A stretch of DNA of 64,000 bases, taken from NCBI RefSeq assembly GCF_015240255.1, contig NZ_CP061205.1, positions 248,001-312,000 of the forward strand, written 5' to 3'. The translations under genes were made by a program, and so were the position numbers. Under the pieces are notes generated by a model that had not been told where the DNA came from, did not search any database, and saw only the letters and a list, made by a program, of their open reading frames with translations. Below, one piece after another: positions 19,308-28,400 of the stretch (its first letter is position 1; the number at the start of each line of letters is the position of its first letter). The DNA comes from Kordiimonas pumila. Lineage in GTDB: Bacteria > Pseudomonadota > Alphaproteobacteria > Sphingomonadales > Kordiimonadaceae.

Positions 19308-21851
19308 CTAGTATTTGAACCTGAGGGTCAGGCCGTAGGTGCGCGGATCACCAACATAGGCATCTAGGCTACCACCTGGAAAGGTGGAGTTAAATGTGTC
19401 GATAACATAGAACTTATCAAACAGGTTACGGCCCCAGAACTGTAGCTGCCAACTGCCATCTTCTGCCCCAACACCGATGGAGGCATCTACAAGCGCATAA
19501 GCATCCTGAAACTGCCTTGGGTCTGCATCTGACGCCAAAGAAGCATAGCCCTGATAATAAAGCTGTCCGCGCAGGAACATTTCAAGATCATGACCGATAG
19601 GCTTCATATAGGTTGCGGTAAAGTTGCCTGAGAATTTTGGCGCTTCAGAAAGACGCGTGCCACTTAGGTCCTGCACCAGAACAATCGCTGTGCCGCCTTC
19701 CGCTTGCACAGGCGTACAATTCTCCTGTGCAACCACAGGGCATGGGCCGTTTAGGTATTCAGCGTATTCCGCCTTAAAGTTCCACAGGAACCCGGCGGTA
19801 AGTAACAGTTCTGGCGTTGCCTGAAACTTGCCGTCAAACTCAAGCCCACGAACTTTGATTTTACCCGCGTTCCCTGGAATGAAGGAACTGCCCACAAACA
19901 GGTTTTCCTGAAAATCATTGATTGTCTGATCATAAAGCGCAAAATCAAGGCTCATACGGTTATCCATAAGCCGAGCCTTTACACCTAGTTCAAAGGCATT
20001 CACCGTTTCGTTATCAAAACTGAAGCTGCCCACACGCGCTGCCGCAGAATCGAGCGCAAAACCACCGCCCTTATAACCACGGGCATAGCTTGCATAAAGA
20101 TTCAGTTTCTCGCTTACATCATAGCTAACAATCAGGTTGCCAGTAATAGCACTGTCACTGATGTCACCGTCCACATCAGGCGCTGGCGGGAAGAACTGCA
20201 GCGCACCAAGCGCCAACAGAGGATTAATATCAGGGTTTGTTGCAACTGCAGATGCCTGCGCTGTGGCCTGCGGTATTACCGTACTTATAATAACATCCTG
20301 CGGTACACCATTAGCAGCTGCTTGTGCCGCAGCTGCCTGCACAGCCTGCCCCACAAAAATTTCAACAAAATCAAGTGCAGCAAATGGGTCATCAATCGTG
20401 ATATCAGATACCATTGACTTTTTATCATGTGTGTAGCGCACACCAGCGGTGACTGTCAGGTCATCCGATACATGCCAGTCAACTTGGCCAAAAGCCGCAT
20501 ACGTTTCGTTGGTTTGGTCAAAAATACCCGCAAGCTGACCAGAGCCATTAGCAAGGAAAGTACCAGAGGGAACACCTAGACCAATTTCAAGCTGAGAAAT
20601 AGCGCTAAGCCCAACGTCAGCATCAAATGTCAGCAAATCTGCAAACGGCCGGAGGGCCGCGCCTTGAACGGTTGAATTTGTGGCCTGCAAATCCTGCTTG
20701 AAATAATAGGCACCCACCATCCACTGTACAGGCTTGTCTGTTGTCGAGGCTAACCTTATTTCCTGCGTAAAGGTGTTATAGGACTGGTTCAATATACGGT
20801 GGCTATTGAGGTTCAGGTCAGAAAAGTCGGCATCAATATTCTGATATTCGTCATAGTCGCGGTATGCGGTAATGGACGTAAGGGTAAAGCTATCAAAATC
20901 ATGATCAATCTGGCCAGAAAAGCCATATGTAGTTAGTTTTGCCCGTGCCTCACCGTTAATGAAAGTGGTGCGGCTTTTTAGGTCAACAGCCGTAATCTGG
21001 CTGCCCAGCAACGATAAAATAGGCTGTGTTTGCGGTGTTATTTCAAAAAATGGTGCCGCGCAGCATTCTTCATTCAGATTATTATAATCAGCAATGAGCC
21101 GCACCCGTGTGTTTTCTGATGGCTCATACAGAACCTGCCCGCGCATACCATAACGGTCTCGTTCATTCAGTTCGCGACCATCATAGTTGTCAATCACGCC
21201 GTCACGCTGGTTCCAGTTCATATCGAGCCGGACGGCCAGCTTGTCCTCTGTGATCGGCAGGTTAATGGCACCTTTTGCCACAAAAGCATCATAGTTGCCG
21301 TATGTCAGCTCACCCTCAACCCCGGTGTCATATGTAGGGGCTTTTGTAATGATGTTCACAACCCCTGCTGTAGTGTTTTTACCAAACAAGGTTGACTGCG
21401 GACCGCGCAGAACCTCTATCCGCTCAATACCGAGAAAGTCATTCACTGAGGCACCGTTGCGTGACCTATACACACCGTCAACAAACACCCCAACAGCAGG
21501 CTCTAGGCCAAAGTTGAAGGTTGAGGAGCTGATCCCACGAATGGAATAGGACGTGTTCGACGCAGACGCCCGCTGCGCAATCTGCAGGGAAGGTACCAAC
21601 ACTTGCAGGTCACGAATATCGCGCAGCTGTGCCAGTTCCATGGTTGAACCACCCACCGCAGATACAGCGATAGGGGTATCTTTCAGTGTTGCTTCACGCT
21701 TCTGCGCCGTTACAACAATTTCTTCAAGGGCAAAATGTTTACCTGTATCTGCTTGCGCATGGGCGGGTAATGCCGCACCCAAGGCAGCGGCACATACTGC
21801 CACTGATGCCATAAACTTTGAAGACACGTGACCATAGCTAATCTTTTTCAT
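19308..21851 (-). CDS. TonB-dependent outer-membrane receptor
   Basis: The 847-residue protein has a signal peptide (SVAVCAAALGAALPAHAQA), a TonB box-like EEIVVTAQKRE, a plug domain with GISSSTFNFG, GVFVDGVYRS and IEVLRGPQSTLFGKNTTAGVVNI, and a 22-strand barrel ending in the aromatic YGLTLRFKY. It imports an unknown ligand (iron-siderophore, sugar or other) across the outer membrane with TonB energy. An extracellular loop near residues 495-560 is unusually rich in Ala and Gln. It is a single gene with its own terminator and lies 270 bp downstream of a second receptor on the same strand. No ligand-processing enzymes are beside it. Confidence 0.92.
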   Translation of the reverse strand: MKKISYGHVSSKFMASVAVCAAALGAALPAHAQADTGKHFALEEIVVTAQKREATLKDTPIAVSAVGGSTMELAQLRDIRDLQVLVPSLQIAQRASASNTSYSIRGISSSTFNFGLEPAVGVFVDGVYRSRNGASVNDFLGIERIEVLRGPQSTLFGKNTTAGVVNIITKAPTYDTGVEGELTYGNYDAFVAKGAINLPITEDKLAVRLDMNWNQRDGVIDNYDGRELNERDRYGMRGQVLYEPSENTRVRLIADYNNLNEECCAAPFFEITPQTQPILSLLGSQITAVDLKSRTTFINGEARAKLTTYGFSGQIDHDFDSFTLTSITAYRDYDEYQNIDADFSDLNLNSHRILNQSYNTFTQEIRLASTTDKPVQWMVGAYYFKQDLQATNSTVQGAALRPFADLLTFDADVGLSAISQLEIGLGVPSGTFLANGSGQLAGIFDQTNETYAAFGQVDWHVSDDLTVTAGVRYTHDKKSMVSDITIDDPFAALDFVEIFVGQAVQAAAAQAAANGVPQDVIISTVIPQATAQASAVATNPDINPLLALGALQFFPPAPDVDGDISDSAITGNLIVSYDVSEKLNLYASYARGYKGGGFALDSAAARVGSFSFDNETVNAFELGVKARLMDNRMSLDFALYDQTINDFQENLFVGSSFIPGNAGKIKVRGLEFDGKFQATPELLLTAGFLWNFKAEYAEYLNGPCPVVAQENCTPVQAEGGTAIVLVQDLSGTRLSEAPKFSGNFTATYMKPIGHDLEMFLRGQLYYQGYASLASDADPRQFQDAYALVDASIGVGAEDGSWQLQFWGRNLFDKFYVIDTFNSTFPGGSLDAYVGDPRTYGLTLRFKY

Positions 21852-22068
21852 AGATTACTCCCCATTATGAATTCCCCATCCAGAACAGAAAATAGCGCAC
21901 CACCGTTACAACTTTACAGCGTAAAAAAAGCCTTCCCGCTTTTTTGTGCCCAGTCGCTCTGTCTGGCCTTTATGAAAAAATGATGTGCTCTGCTTTTGCA
22001 TACGTCAAGTCATTCTTGCTCAAATAGTCAGGATTTTTAAAATATAGTTTTACACTGTGCCCCAATGA

Positions 22069-22094
22069 CAAAAGGCGACCAAAGCCGCCTTTTG
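22069..22094 (-). terminator. Terminator of the second TonB receptor gene
   Basis: Arms CAAAAGGCG and CGCCTTTTG are perfectly complementary over 9 bp with an 8-nt loop; the minus-strand stem ends in TTTTG. It lies 28 bp past the receptor stop. The remaining gap to the next receptor start (21852-22068) shows no gene. Confidence 0.7.
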
Positions 22095-22121
22095 ATTGTT
22101 TAAGGATAAACCTCATATATC

Positions 22122-24305
22122 CTAGAAGCTGTATTTCGCTTCTACACCAAACACTCGACCCTTTTTAAGCGGTGAAAGAGTATGGCCAGGACCAAATGGC
22201 AACAGCGTTTCGCCGCCTGCATACACTTCATTCAGCAGGTTTTTACCAAACACGGTAAACTTAACACTATCGTCCATCACACCCAGCGTGATGCTGGCAT
22301 CCAGCATATCAACCGCATCCAAAATAGCCGTATTGGCATCGTTATAATAAGACTGGTCTCTATGATTGAAGTTTACGCCCGCAGACAGAGAGCCCCAATC
22401 AGCAACGGGTGCAGAATAGCGCAAACCAGCGCCCCATGTGACAGGTGCAAGACGCGGCAACTGCAAGGCGGTATCGCCGTCATCAACAACCCCGTCACCG
22501 CTAATGTCATAGATGGCAGAGGTATATTTATCATCCAGCACACCAATAGACCCCGTGAATGTGAGGTTTTCATGAAGCTGAGCAATAAGTTCGGCTTCAA
22601 AGCCCATCACGCGGGCATCCGCAGTATTCCTAATAATCTGAACTACACCAGCCGTAGGGTCAGGTAGGTTAACCTCCCGCTGCAGATCATAGAGCTTGTT
22701 ATAGAAAGCCGCTGCGTTCAAACGAATGGTTTTATCAGCATTATCAAGTTTCAAACCCAGTTCAAACGAGTTCTGTTTTTCCTGCCCAAACGGACCGGGA
22801 GAGGCTGTGGGTGAGGTGTTCCGCATATTATAGCCACCAGACCTGTAGCCCTGCGTAAAGAAACCATAAACTTGCATATCGTCTTTTGGTGTCCATTGCA
22901 GGCCAATTTTTGGCGACCAGCTATCCCAGCTTTCTTCATCTGCGAAATCATAGCTACAAGGGGTTGTATCAATAGCACAGCCATTGAGTGGCAAGGTTGC
23001 AATATCAGCCGCTTTTTTCTCTTTTGTATACCGCAAGCCAACGTTCAGTGTCAGTGTGTCTGACAGGTTATAGTCTACACTTGCAAAGGCTGCCTTTGTT
23101 GACTGCGATTGATCACCACCGCCAGTATAATCCGCAGCGCCAAACAGCAGAAACCGGTGTTCACGGTACACCAAGTCCTGATCAAAATAGAACAGGCCTG
23201 CAGTCAGGTCAAAGTTTTCGAATGTACCATTATAGCGTAATTCATTACTGAACTGCTCTGCTTCTGTAAGCGCATCTGAGTGAAAGAGAGCAAGCGGTGT
23301 GCCATCAATATCGCCACCACTTAAGCCCTTACTTTTACGCCAGCCCGTAATGTTGGTAATAGCCCCAGTACCTACATCTATATTTATTTCGCCGATCAAC
23401 TGGTCCCATGTGTTGTCATAGTAACCAATATTGTCATAGCCAAGATCAAAGGTGGTGCGATCATATAGACCGCGGTTCTGTGTTACAGGGCCATCACCTT
23501 CAGCATCGCCGTGTTCGTAGCGTACTGTGACCTCAACATCATCAGACGCGCGCAGTGTAAAGGCAGGGCGGAAGATCAATGTTTCCGCTTTACCCACTTT
23601 CGTGCCTGTTACAAGGTTATCAAAGTAACCACCGTCGTTATTGTAATGAACAGCAAGCTTTAGTGCGAGCTTGTCTTCAATGACCGGGCCAGTAAGCGTA
23701 CCGTTCAAAATAAAATTATCACCACTTTCATACGCCGCACGTGCGCGCACCTTTGTTTCAAAGCTTGGCTTGATGGTATTCATCAAAACCGCGCCACCCG
23801 TTACGTTACGACCAAACAGAAGACCTTGCGGACCGCGTAGAACCTCAACGCTTGCCAGATCAAACTGATCAAACACAACGCCAGAAATAAGGCCCAGATA
23901 AACACCATCCACAAACACACCCACTGTTGGGTCGATTGAAGGAATGGAGCTGTTTACACCAATACCGCGAATGGTGAAGTTCGCCACACCGCGTGAGGTG
24001 CCAATATCATCAAGAGATACGTTTGGCATTTTGAAAGACAGGCTTTCAAGATCGCGGAACTGTACGGCATCGAGTTGGCGTTCCCCAAAAGCGGTTACCG
24101 CAACAGGTACATCCTGCGCATTTTGTAGTGCCGATTTTTTGGTTGCTGTTACCAGTATTTCTTCGAGTAAAGCGTTACCTTGTTTATCTGTATCAGCGTC
24201 TTGTGCCACTACCGGTACGGCAAACGCTGTTGCAGCCGCTGAATAGAGCGCGAGCATGCTGCATGATTTCTTAAAAGAATAAGATGTCACTTCAAGTCTC
24301 CCCAT
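22122..24305 (-). CDS. TonB-dependent outer-membrane receptor
   Basis: The 727-residue protein has a signal peptide (LALYSAAATAFAVPVVAQ), a TonB box-like LEEILVTATKKS, the plug motifs FTIRGIGVNSSIPSIDPTVG, VFVDGVYLG and VEVLRGPQGLLFGRNVTGGA, and a beta-barrel with a C-terminal FGVEAKYSF. It is of the same broad class as the neighbouring 847-residue receptor but clearly different in barrel sequence, so they are not a recent tandem copy. The ligand is unknown; no siderophore, heme or glycan genes adjoin it. It has its own terminator. Confidence 0.92.
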   Translation of the reverse strand: MGRLEVTSYSFKKSCSMLALYSAAATAFAVPVVAQDADTDKQGNALLEEILVTATKKSALQNAQDVPVAVTAFGERQLDAVQFRDLESLSFKMPNVSLDDIGTSRGVANFTIRGIGVNSSIPSIDPTVGVFVDGVYLGLISGVVFDQFDLASVEVLRGPQGLLFGRNVTGGAVLMNTIKPSFETKVRARAAYESGDNFILNGTLTGPVIEDKLALKLAVHYNNDGGYFDNLVTGTKVGKAETLIFRPAFTLRASDDVEVTVRYEHGDAEGDGPVTQNRGLYDRTTFDLGYDNIGYYDNTWDQLIGEINIDVGTGAITNITGWRKSKGLSGGDIDGTPLALFHSDALTEAEQFSNELRYNGTFENFDLTAGLFYFDQDLVYREHRFLLFGAADYTGGGDQSQSTKAAFASVDYNLSDTLTLNVGLRYTKEKKAADIATLPLNGCAIDTTPCSYDFADEESWDSWSPKIGLQWTPKDDMQVYGFFTQGYRSGGYNMRNTSPTASPGPFGQEKQNSFELGLKLDNADKTIRLNAAAFYNKLYDLQREVNLPDPTAGVVQIIRNTADARVMGFEAELIAQLHENLTFTGSIGVLDDKYTSAIYDISGDGVVDDGDTALQLPRLAPVTWGAGLRYSAPVADWGSLSAGVNFNHRDQSYYNDANTAILDAVDMLDASITLGVMDDSVKFTVFGKNLLNEVYAGGETLLPFGPGHTLSPLKKGRVFGVEAKYSF

Positions 24306-24497: not shown

Positions 24498-24920
24498 TTA
24501 TTTAGGTTCAATGATTGCTTTTATAACAAACACTTCCACCTTTCCCTTACCTAAACGGTAGTCCAGAAAAGGGGTTAGGTACGCGCTGACCAAATCCGGG
24601 TCCACGGGGCGGTCAACACTGAATTGCTGGCGCGCCAAATCTGTTAAAGCAATGGAGATATCAGAGCGGATTCTAGGAATTTGGTTATTAATGTCTTCAT
24701 AGTCTTTACCATCATCAAGCTCTAGAACAAGTTGCAAGTTCGCCTGCCCCTCAACACGACCACGTTTAATGACAGCAAAATTGAACGGCTCAAGTGTGAT
24801 TTTGTATTTACCCTCCGTCGGAACCTCTCCACTGTTCTCCTCTTCAGACGCAGCAGCAAAAGGCATGAAAATGCTACTCAGTAAAAAAGCAAAAATTAAT
24901 AGTCCTGTCCGCACAATCAT
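24498..24920 (-). CDS. FliL-like exported protein
   Basis: The 140-residue product has a signal peptide (GLLIFAFLLSSIFMPFAAA) and then a domain that reads like the periplasmic part of FliL: YKITLEPFNFAVIKRGRVEG, LQLVLELDDGKDYEDI, IPRIRSDISIALTDL, and a hydrophobic end KVEVFVIKAII. FliL in flagella sits at the stator and is anchored by one uncleaved helix; here the hydrophobic part looks cleavable, which differs. No basal-body genes are near, but the next coding gene upstream on this strand is a large protein with flagellin/hook-like ends. The similarity to FliL is weak and rests on pattern only. Confidence 0.55.
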   Translation of the reverse strand: MIVRTGLLIFAFLLSSIFMPFAAASEEENSGEVPTEGKYKITLEPFNFAVIKRGRVEGQANLQLVLELDDGKDYEDINNQIPRIRSDISIALTDLARQQFSVDRPVDPDLVSAYLTPFLDYRLGKGKVEVFVIKAIIEPK

Positions 24921-25397: not shown

Positions 25398-28300
25398 TTA
25401 TACGAAAAAGTTAACGCTGGAAGAGCTACCCGACTGTAGCCTTGCCAAGCCCGATTGGAAATTGGCAATCTGGTTTTGTAGATACTGAGGCACTGTACCC
25501 TGCTTTGAGGAGTTATTAGACAAATCACGAAATGGATTATATTCCAATGACCGAAAAGCACGCTGAATTGTAGAGATCGCATCATCCAGCAAGCCCAGCA
25601 CATACTTAGCCGTAGTTTTGTCTTTAATATGCAGTTCACCGTCAAGTTTAAGGCCGTAGACACCGCCTAAACTATCAGCTTCATCATCGTCATCACTGTT
25701 TAAATCGAAAACTTCATTTTTCGGCAGCAACTTCCCTGCTTCCAGCCCCAACCGCTCAAGCAGGTCTCTGCCTCCGGTGCCGGGCAGCAGATCAATAGCA
25801 ACACCATTATCAACCGTGCTAATTTTCAGCTTGTCGCCTTCAGAGGTTGACGTGACTTCAACTTTTATTTTGCCAATGCCGGTAATTTTCAGCTTTCTTG
25901 CTATGTCATCAAAGGTATCGCCGTCTTCAAGGGTAATCTTTTTCTTGGTGCCACCATCAATGGAAATATAAAAGAAATCACCTTCACGGGCTGAGGTCTG
26001 GCTTTCAATATCCAGTGTCTGATCAGCATTGATAGCGCCCGTTGGTAGCCCCAGTGTTTCAAGAACCGAATTGCCTTTATTGGTAAAGGCAATACCAGTA
26101 ACATTAGAGCGCGACAGGCTTTCACCAAACTGCTGCACATCACCCAGTGCACCGCTACTGCCATCAACACGCGCTACAAAGCCATCGGTGGCACCACGAG
26201 CAGTTTCACCCGCCAATGTTTGTGTGGTTGAACCGGCAACATAAACAACACCGTCCTGTACCACCACATCAGCAATTTTATCTGTGCCGCTGGTTGACAA
26301 ATACGTCGTGAAGTTTGCCGCAATGTCCGTTGTGCCAGAAAGTGTCAAGCCACTTACAAAGCCTTCCTGCCCGCCAAGTGCAGTTTCATTTAGCGTTGCA
26401 GCACCGCCTGCATTCAGACTAGCGTTTGTTGTTACACCGGCAATATAAACCGCGCCGTTCGCATTATCGATTGTAATACTCTGGATCGACCCGCTTGTCC
26501 CAAGGTTACCAAGGTTCACACTGCTGGTATGGTTTGTCAGGTCAGAACCATCAACGCGGTAAACAACCGCATTGTCGCCTTCTTCAACCGCTACGACCAG
26601 ATTGTTATTTGCATCAACTGCAATACCGCGGATCACGTCATTCCCGCTGGTACCAAAAACATTGGAATCAGTCAGCTTGCCTGTGCTGCCATTCAGTTTA
26701 AGGATCAAGGCATCGCTGCCACCGGAAAAACCGGAGGAAGAACTGATAGCTGATTTTGTATAGCCACCAACATAAATGTCATCGTTTGAATCGACCGCAA
26801 CCGAATAAGCACCCGATTCAGCAAAAGTGTCCAACTGGTAGCGAAAGACCTCGTCACCGCGCTTGCTTATTTTTGTGATAAACGCATCTCCGTTTTCACT
26901 ACTCACTGCGTCTGCCGTTGAAAGCGCACTTTCCGTTTTTCCAACAATGATGACATTGTCTTCACTGTCCACCGTAATGCCATAAGCTTCCGCACTCTCC
27001 GACACGCCTAACAGCCGAGAGAAAACAAGATTGCCCTCGCTATCAAACTTGGTCAGAAAAACATCCTGCTCGCTTGCGGTGTTAATTTGGTGGCCAAAAG
27101 TACCATCAGACGTACCAACCACATAAATACCGCCGTCGCTGGTCACGGCAATACGCGAGGCAGACGTATCAGCGTTCACCTTATAGTCACTGTCTATATT
27201 GGTGATCGAGGATGTATTGTCGGTATCCTCTTCGTCATCATCGTCGTCGTCATCAGTTACAGATTCCAGTGCCTCGGCCCTAAATTTGTCACGCAGGGCA
27301 GCAATCGCCGGGTCAACATCGTCTTCTTCAATATCTTTTGTGCGTTCCTTGATATCAGTTCCCTCAAGGTCAATCGCTGCAAAAGATGTTGTATCGTCAA
27401 GTGTGAGCGTACCGCTCAGGTTATTAAATTCTGAAATGCGGCTGGTAATGGCATAATCATCGTCAAGCTGGCTCACAGATGATGTCACATAAAGCGTGGG
27501 TTCACTAACGGCCGCTGCAAAAGAAACCTCTTCCGTGATAGTGCCGTCTACCTGCAAACCGTATCTGCCAGATGTACCATCCCGGTGAATATCAAACCGG
27601 GTCTGATACTTGACATATTCTTCGCCTTCGTCGTCAAGTGCAGTGACAGATTCAATCTGCTCGTTGATATGGGCCACAATATTATTCAAGGAAAGCGCGC
27701 CTGAAAGTGTACTGAGGTCAACCGTCACCTCGTCAGACTCGCCGCCTTTTTCAAGCGTAATAGTGAACACCTCAGTGCCCGTTAGCCCTGCTATAGCCTC
27801 ATTAGGGTTATCAACCACCAGCGAACCATCAAACCCGGTACCGTTTTTACCAGTTCTAACTGCGGCTTCGGTGGTATATTTCTTTTCCCCCAAAAACAGC
27901 GATAGCTTATCCAGCTCAGCCGTAGAAATATAATCCCTAACCTGATCAAACCCCTCTTGAAACTTGGCATTCAGTCGGTCGAGGGAAGATTTGGACGTTG
28001 TATCAGCAGAAGCATACTCAGCAAGGACGCGCAGGTTTTCAAGCGCGCGGTACAATGCAAATGTAGCGGTTTTATCTGAATTTCCTTTAACAGAGTTCAA
28101 GATATCATCATTCAGGTCTATGAATTTTGTAAGTTCTCGCACTGAACGCACACGCGCTTCAAGTGACGATGTTTCTTCCGCCTGCTGCCACGGCGGCACA
28201 ACTGTATTGGCGTTCAGATCAATGCTATAGGCTGCCCGGTCTTCTGCCGACAAACTCCGCAGGGATGACTGGGTTAGTTTTGCACTTACAGAAGCTGAAA

Positions 28301-28400
28301 TCAGGGAACTGTCAAAGCCAATAATTTGGGTCCGGGAAGACTGCTGGCCCGCAACCCCAAAAAGGCTAGAAAAACTGACTGATGTCCCAAAAAAAGCCAT
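25398..28400 (-). CDS. Large protein: flagellin/hook-like ends with an inserted beta-propeller
   Basis: The 1000-residue protein has no signal peptide. Residues 1-160 are mostly helical and Ser/Ala-rich, like an axial flagellar protein N-terminus (SLRSLSAEDRAAYSIDLNAN, then long helices). Residues about 200-370 are beta-rich with FTITLEKGGESDEVTVDLS. A run of Asp/Glu lies near 377-390. Residues about 400-775 hold some seven SBBP-type beta-propeller repeats with blades of the form GIYVVGTSDGTFG and DAFITKISKRGD. Residues about 775-920 have two segments like flagellin hook IN motifs (KKITLEDGDTFDDIARKL). The end is helical, then SSSSVNFFV. Export by a flagellar or type I route is plausible. The closest gene on this strand encodes a FliL-like protein. 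Function unknown. Confidence 0.7.
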   Translation of the reverse strand: MAFFGTSVSFSSLFGVAGQQSSRTQIIGFDSSLISASVSAKLTQSSLRSLSAEDRAAYSIDLNANTVVPPWQQAEETSSLEARVRSVRELTKFIDLNDDILNSVKGNSDKTATFALYRALENLRVLAEYASADTTSKSSLDRLNAKFQEGFDQVRDYISTAELDKLSLFLGEKKYTTEAAVRTGKNGTGFDGSLVVDNPNEAIAGLTGTEVFTITLEKGGESDEVTVDLSTLSGALSLNNIVAHINEQIESVTALDDEGEEYVKYQTRFDIHRDGTSGRYGLQVDGTITEEVSFAAAVSEPTLYVTSSVSQLDDDYAITSRISEFNNLSGTLTLDDTTSFAAIDLEGTDIKERTKDIEEDDVDPAIAALRDKFRAEALESVTDDDDDDDEEDTDNTSSITNIDSDYKVNADTSASRIAVTSDGGIYVVGTSDGTFGHQINTASEQDVFLTKFDSEGNLVFSRLLGVSESAEAYGITVDSEDNVIIVGKTESALSTADAVSSENGDAFITKISKRGDEVFRYQLDTFAESGAYSVAVDSNDDIYVGGYTKSAISSSSGFSGGSDALILKLNGSTGKLTDSNVFGTSGNDVIRGIAVDANNNLVVAVEEGDNAVVYRVDGSDLTNHTSSVNLGNLGTSGSIQSITIDNANGAVYIAGVTTNASLNAGGAATLNETALGGQEGFVSGLTLSGTTDIAANFTTYLSTSGTDKIADVVVQDGVVYVAGSTTQTLAGETARGATDGFVARVDGSSGALGDVQQFGESLSRSNVTGIAFTNKGNSVLETLGLPTGAINADQTLDIESQTSAREGDFFYISIDGGTKKKITLEDGDTFDDIARKLKITGIGKIKVEVTSTSEGDKLKISTVDNGVAIDLLPGTGGRDLLERLGLEAGKLLPKNEVFDLNSDDDDEADSLGGVYGLKLDGELHIKDKTTAKYVLGLLDDAISTIQRAFRSLEYNPFRDLSNNSSKQGTVPQYLQNQIANFQSGLARLQSGSSSSVNFFV

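Follow-up and report, generated by a model that had tools for sequence, protein, structure and literature searches.

A probable FlaEY-type protein of Kordiimonas pumila with a beta-propeller between flagellar ends and a possible role in place of the FliD filament cap

The Kordiimonas locus and the propeller protein

The window analyzed here is a stretch of 64,000 nucleotides of the Kordiimonas pumila contig NZ_CP061205.1, and its features of interest are collected in Table 1. The neighbors of the propeller gene in the window are a FliL-like gene and genes for TonB-dependent receptors, YggT and FolD. The gene does not lie beside flagellar structural genes, the flagellins are encoded elsewhere in the genome, and no type I secretion genes were found near it in the window. 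The complete 4.04-Mb genome holds one full-length copy, and homologs are present in 53 of 60 related genomes, so the protein is neither a product of chance nor a local peculiarity; most genomes encode one copy. Upstream sigma-54 sites of the -24/-12 type were found at 4 of 51 loci (0.09 expected), with none in the window, and are given no weight here.

Table 1. Features of the propeller gene and its companion (window positions; residues of the encoded protein)
Feature	Residues	Position	Strand	Basis or remark
Propeller-headed flagellar axial protein, very probably of FlaEY type	1-1000	25398..28400	-	ATG start, 1000 aa and stop
N-terminal helices	31-165 (AlphaFold2 helices 31-160)	27906..28310	-	AlphaFold2 and profile comparison
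First hook-IN-like beta domain	186-300 (AlphaFold2 beta domain 166-296)	27501..27845	-	Fold, hhalign
Seven-bladed SBBP beta-propeller	about 300-777 (AlphaFold2 about 299-777)	26070..27503	-	PF06739, AlphaFold2, CylK alignment
Helical acidic insert inside the propeller	about 341-405	27186..27380	-	AlphaFold2 secondary structure and pLDDT
Second hook-IN-like domain	about 788-900 (AlphaFold2 beta domain 788-890)	25701..26039	-	hmmsearch and hhalign to FliD
C-terminal helices	928-950 and 972-990	25431..25619	-	AlphaFold2; conserved in alignments
Companion, 140 aa, signal-peptide-like N-terminus, distant FliL relative		24498..24920	-	Next gene downstream, same strand

In about 39 related loci (Kordiimonadales and relatives), a homolog of the companion is likewise next to the propeller gene. 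Members of its family match Pfam FliL (E = 3e-6, above the cut-off, at locus L163; 1.9e-4 at L101), and an Erythrobacter member is annotated as belonging to the FliL family; the companion in the window reaches only E = 0.058 against an NCBIfam FliL model. Two adjoining TonB-dependent receptor genes (19308-24305, reverse strand) lie downstream of the companion gene.

The initial annotation of the propeller protein as 1000 residues of SBBP repeats, helical ends and hook-IN-like segments was borne out by Pfam, an AlphaFold2 model and family profiles. PF06739 (SBBP) matches in three stretches, above the Pfam cut-off (E = 2.9e-11), and the AlphaFold2 model of the whole protein (44-row alignment, mean pLDDT 83.6, pTM 0.78) shows residues 1 to 30 disordered and the center closed into seven blades, making this an SBBP propeller by both profile and fold. 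The protein's only sequence relatives in the PDB are CylK propellers (E of about 1e-29), and CylK is also the best structural match of the modeled propeller, at Z = 42.8 (rmsd 2.1, 344 residues). The acidic insert differs in length between homologs. The likeness to SBBP proteins such as CylK and the LipL53-type lipoproteins lies in the propeller itself; CylK, in contrast, is an alkylating enzyme, and propeller-only proteins, which split profiles place in many phyla, lack the N- and C-terminal domains. The same profiles found N-terminal, propeller and C-terminal regions together only in alphaproteobacterial proteins.

Flagellar relatives of both ends

The hook-IN-like segments of the ends are detectable only by family profiles and fold comparison. 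Single-sequence scans with Pfam and NCBIfam found neither such segments nor any other flagellar match in the ends. Weak FlxA and RecN rows in the single-sequence scans of the ends were disregarded. In profile-profile comparison (hhalign), the N domain matched flagellin (E = 1.4e-5), FlgL (1.6e-4) and FliD (6.6e-4), and the C domain matched FliD (3.4e-6). FlgK reached only 0.07 and 0.043 against the ends, and the best E value of the controls (FlgI, FlgG, FlgH, FolD, ArgG, TonB receptors and others) was 0.15. The two domains also matched each other (E = 7e-4), and at the level of sequence profiles this is consistent with the N- and C-terminal beta domains being two copies of one domain type. Among PDB sequences (hmmsearch), the C-domain profile A3 matched FliD 9gsx (E = 4e-5), and the N-region profile A4 matched residues 87-142 of flagellin 9hpz (E = 0.0037). 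Residues from about 108 to 165 align to the conserved N-terminal D1 helical segment of flagellin, and the N-terminal helical end is homologous to those of flagellin and the HAPs. Unlike the propeller protein, flagellin and FlgL lack the central domains and the propeller.

The list from a fold search with the whole model was taken up by propellers and was uninformative on the ends, and residues 1 to 300 were therefore folded alone. The isolated model has a low pTM (0.43), and its two parts are free to move. In VIA-align, residues 186-300 matched domains D2-D3 of FliD (5h5t) with Z = 8.5 (rmsd 2.8, 95 aligned), a value not far above what unrelated models may attain, and the consistency of the list weighs more than the score: for the N-terminal beta domain, all of the top 20 rows were FliD, FlgK or flagellin, with FliD rows leading at Z of about 8. 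The list and the profile matches speak against the concern raised at the outset that the ends might fold unlike flagellar proteins. Foldseek searches with the isolated model gave no row below E = 0.001 (best FlgK, 1.7e-3), and no clean flagellin match by fold was found for the helical part. At the other end, helices are predicted by AlphaFold2, and the profile matches in the C region are confined to its hook-IN part. Besides FliD, FlgK and FlgE, weak matches of the C profile in other genomes included an autotransporter and an RTX protein; a weak hook-IN match alone is therefore unspecific.

As an indirect indication, the composition of the protein resembles that of exported axial proteins, in which cysteine is usually nearly absent. 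The Kordiimonas protein has no cysteine, and its family has four in 42,128 residues (0.09 per 1000), compared to 0 to 0.7 per 1000 in FliD, FlgK, FlgL and flagellin and 7.6 in the other open reading frames of the window. Like FliD (HAP2), the propeller protein combines hook-IN-type head domains with N- and C-terminal helices, freedom from cysteine and a late filament context. It differs from FliD in that its N-terminal helices are closer to those of flagellin and FlgL, in that its hook-IN domains are separated by a propeller, and in that it occurs in different genomes. The Pfam models FliD_N and FliD_C match neither this protein nor anything else in the Kordiimonas genome, and Pfam flagellin does not match the protein. 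Taken together, the PDB-profile, profile-profile and fold evidence shows that both ends are flagellar, the C end by its hook-IN part.

Genomic linkage and distribution against FliD

In other genomes the propeller gene is linked to flagellar genes. On an Erythrobacter plasmid, in Sphingobium and in a third genome (L172) it is flanked by fliG and flgB, and it adjoins flgJ-flgI-flgH-flgA-flgG-flgF in further genomes. In Caulobacteraceae-like genomes, which we place in Caulobacterales because the set contains a contig of Oceanicaulis HLUCCA04, it comes immediately after two or three flagellin genes and encodes about 890 to 980 residues. The initial annotation offered a secreted adhesin as its second possibility; if exported by a type I system or another one, such a protein would owe its flagellar likeness to chance. 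The Kordiimonas gene does lie away from flagellar clusters, and propeller repeats occur in secreted proteins. However, the protein contains no GGxGxD repeats, no type I secretion genes adjoin it, and its homologs, rather than being found only beside such genes, are flagellum-linked in several lineages and co-occur with flagellin. Together with the flagellar homology of both ends, this makes the adhesin reading very improbable. The claim that axial flagellar ends surround a propeller is supported by profile, fold, synteny and distribution. The adhesive or enzymatic head that was proposed for the filament found neither support nor contradiction, and overall the interpretation of the initial annotation is partly supported.

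Several variants of the family were encountered. A long form of about 1475 to 1500 aa in Caulobacterales family f162 (L215:5945-10369 and L221:5537-10024) has about 600 additional residues that separate the N domain from the propeller. Some Emcibacteraceae-type genomes have two diverged paralogs (L037/L038 in G047; L070/L088 in one genome), and in the fragmented assembly G246 a member is split into several frames (L282:4863-8221). A phage search for the propeller family found nothing. No SBBP match was found in the control genome of Caulobacter vibrioides, which is not evidence of absence, since a Caulobacteraceae-type member also lacks a Pfam SBBP match.

Distributions were compared in 387 alphaproteobacterial genomes drawn evenly, with a C-domain match below E = 1e-20 defining a carrier. 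By this threshold 31 genomes are carriers, and 30 of these encode flagellin compared to 237 of all 387 (P = 2.6e-6), the exception having a fragment only. Within one genus, genome G258 has both flagellin and the propeller protein and G061 has neither. The linkage to flagellar genes and this co-occurrence are as expected for a flagellar axial protein. FliD_C scored above the cut-off in 85 of the 387 genomes, none of them a carrier, and FliD_N is likewise missing from the carriers. Among flagellated genomes the comparison is 0 of 30 carriers with 84 of 207 others (Fisher P = 7.6e-7), although the sampled genomes are not independent of one another. By taxonomic family, the 14 with carriers and the 50 with FliD do not overlap (P of about 6e-5; a hand count gave about 107 flagellated families). 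Of 40 carriers tested, 39 encode FlgK and all have an FlgL-type match. Two Caulobacter-like genomes that were not part of this draw, G493 and G473, encode the propeller protein plus FliD. They carry second sets of FlgK, FlgL and FliD (G493:C1:3738326-3745061 and G473:C1:1811613-1817941), and as their FliD lies within a few kilobases of the second flgK and flgL, it is probably part of a second flagellar apparatus.

The Erythrobacter aureus plasmid NZ_CP031358 (L130, L131, L276 and L277) offers a test case, with a broad flagellar set that includes a propeller member and runs across the start of the record. The plasmid encodes FlgE, FlgK, an FlgL-like protein, flagellin, export genes and MotAB, as well as FlbT, FlaF and two FliL-family proteins. 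No FliD is annotated in the flagellar stretches read, and the sole match of the FliD profile in them is the C end of the propeller member (E = 2.2e-5).

The exclusion has limits as an argument. Neither FliD nor the propeller protein was found in 123 flagellated genomes of the sample, and Rhizobiaceae have been reported to lack FliD (PMC6913195). In Pseudomonas, loss of FliD is reported to abolish filaments (PMC5072837). In the Caulobacter vibrioides control, flagellin and FlgK were found and FliD was not. The 123 genomes and the Rhizobiaceae indicate that filaments can grow without either protein and that absence of FliD alone does not require a substitute. The exclusion between FliD and the propeller protein may partly be a lineage effect.

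Relation to FlaEY and a possible cap role

The propeller family is very probably FlaEY, an assignment based on taxonomic order, gene position and size. The position directly behind flagellin genes and the length of the Caulobacterales members agree with this identity; in Caulobacter, flaE and flaY lie in the flagellin cluster. The gene family itself is thus probably known already; its architecture and the exclusion with FliD appear to be undescribed. In the literature searched, mostly non-subscription journals, we found no description of propeller or FliD-like domains in FlaEY. Both the probable FlaEY identity and the mutual exclusion with FliD were overlooked in the initial annotation.

What sets FlaEY apart from the protein described here is its label, as it has been described as a regulator ("regulatory protein FlaEY" in Caulobacter; FlaQ in Sphingomonas S2M10). 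PMC8921679 reports FlaEY in flagellar regulation in Sphingomonas and Caulobacter and, citing other work, says that FlaE and FlaY modulate the flagellin and chemotaxis genes of Caulobacter. It also relates, again from other work, that a mutant of Sphingomonas S2M10 in FlaQ, a FlaEY homolog, showed increased fliC and decreased flgI expression. One explanation is therefore an exported regulator, whose secretion or retention would signal hook completion and control flagellin expression. The reported expression effects of FlaE/FlaY and FlaQ (PMC8921679) and the place of the gene beside flagellin genes in Caulobacteraceae-like genomes speak for it. In contrast, an architecture of 1000 residues resembling FliD and flagellin suits a structural role, a Pfam scan of the protein found no DNA- or RNA-binding domain, and failed filament assembly would itself change expression, so we regard the regulator as distinctly unlikely. 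The altered flagellin expression in FlaEY and FlaQ mutants, which PMC8921679 reports from others, would suit a regulator as much as a cap.

That the propeller protein is a flagellar axial protein is well supported, and its place within the filament is a more tentative matter. It could be a component other than the cap, at the hook-filament junction or decorating the filament, with the propeller as a head for display or binding (an adhesin or glycan binder). Such a role would fit N-terminal helices closer to flagellin and FlgL than to FliD, the commonness of SBBP propellers elsewhere, and a head as variable as that of the long form. On the other hand, carriers already have FlgK and FlgL, most genomes hold one copy of the gene, and such a role would leave the mutual exclusion with FliD unexplained, making this placement rather unlikely. 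The exclusion points instead to a cap, which we rank above other axial roles because FliD is absent from the same flagella. We give an even chance to the propeller protein being an axial protein that does the job of FliD at the filament tip.

In this reading, the propeller protein would be exported through the flagellar apparatus and its helical ends would take a place in the lattice of the filament, in the manner of flagellin, FlgL and FliD, while the two FliD-like hook-IN domains hold the seven-bladed propeller as a head. A ring of such subunits at the growing tip could then hold and fold the emerging flagellin, an activity that would stand in for the missing FliD. The "regulator" label would in that case be indirect, with failed filament assembly feeding back on flagellin expression. 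The FliL-like companion is not accounted for by a cap role of the propeller protein.

FliD is treated as the bacterial filament cap, yet many alphaproteobacteria make filaments without it. It is conceivable, at somewhat less than even chances, that a second class of cap, propeller-headed and for the greater part of its length unlike FliD, has taken the place of FliD in 14 or more alphaproteobacterial families, that of Caulobacter probably among them, and has for decades been filed as a regulator. If so, this would explain capping in one FliD-less group of alphaproteobacteria and provide FlaEY with a mechanism. It would also mean that the head of a cap can be rebuilt around a propeller.
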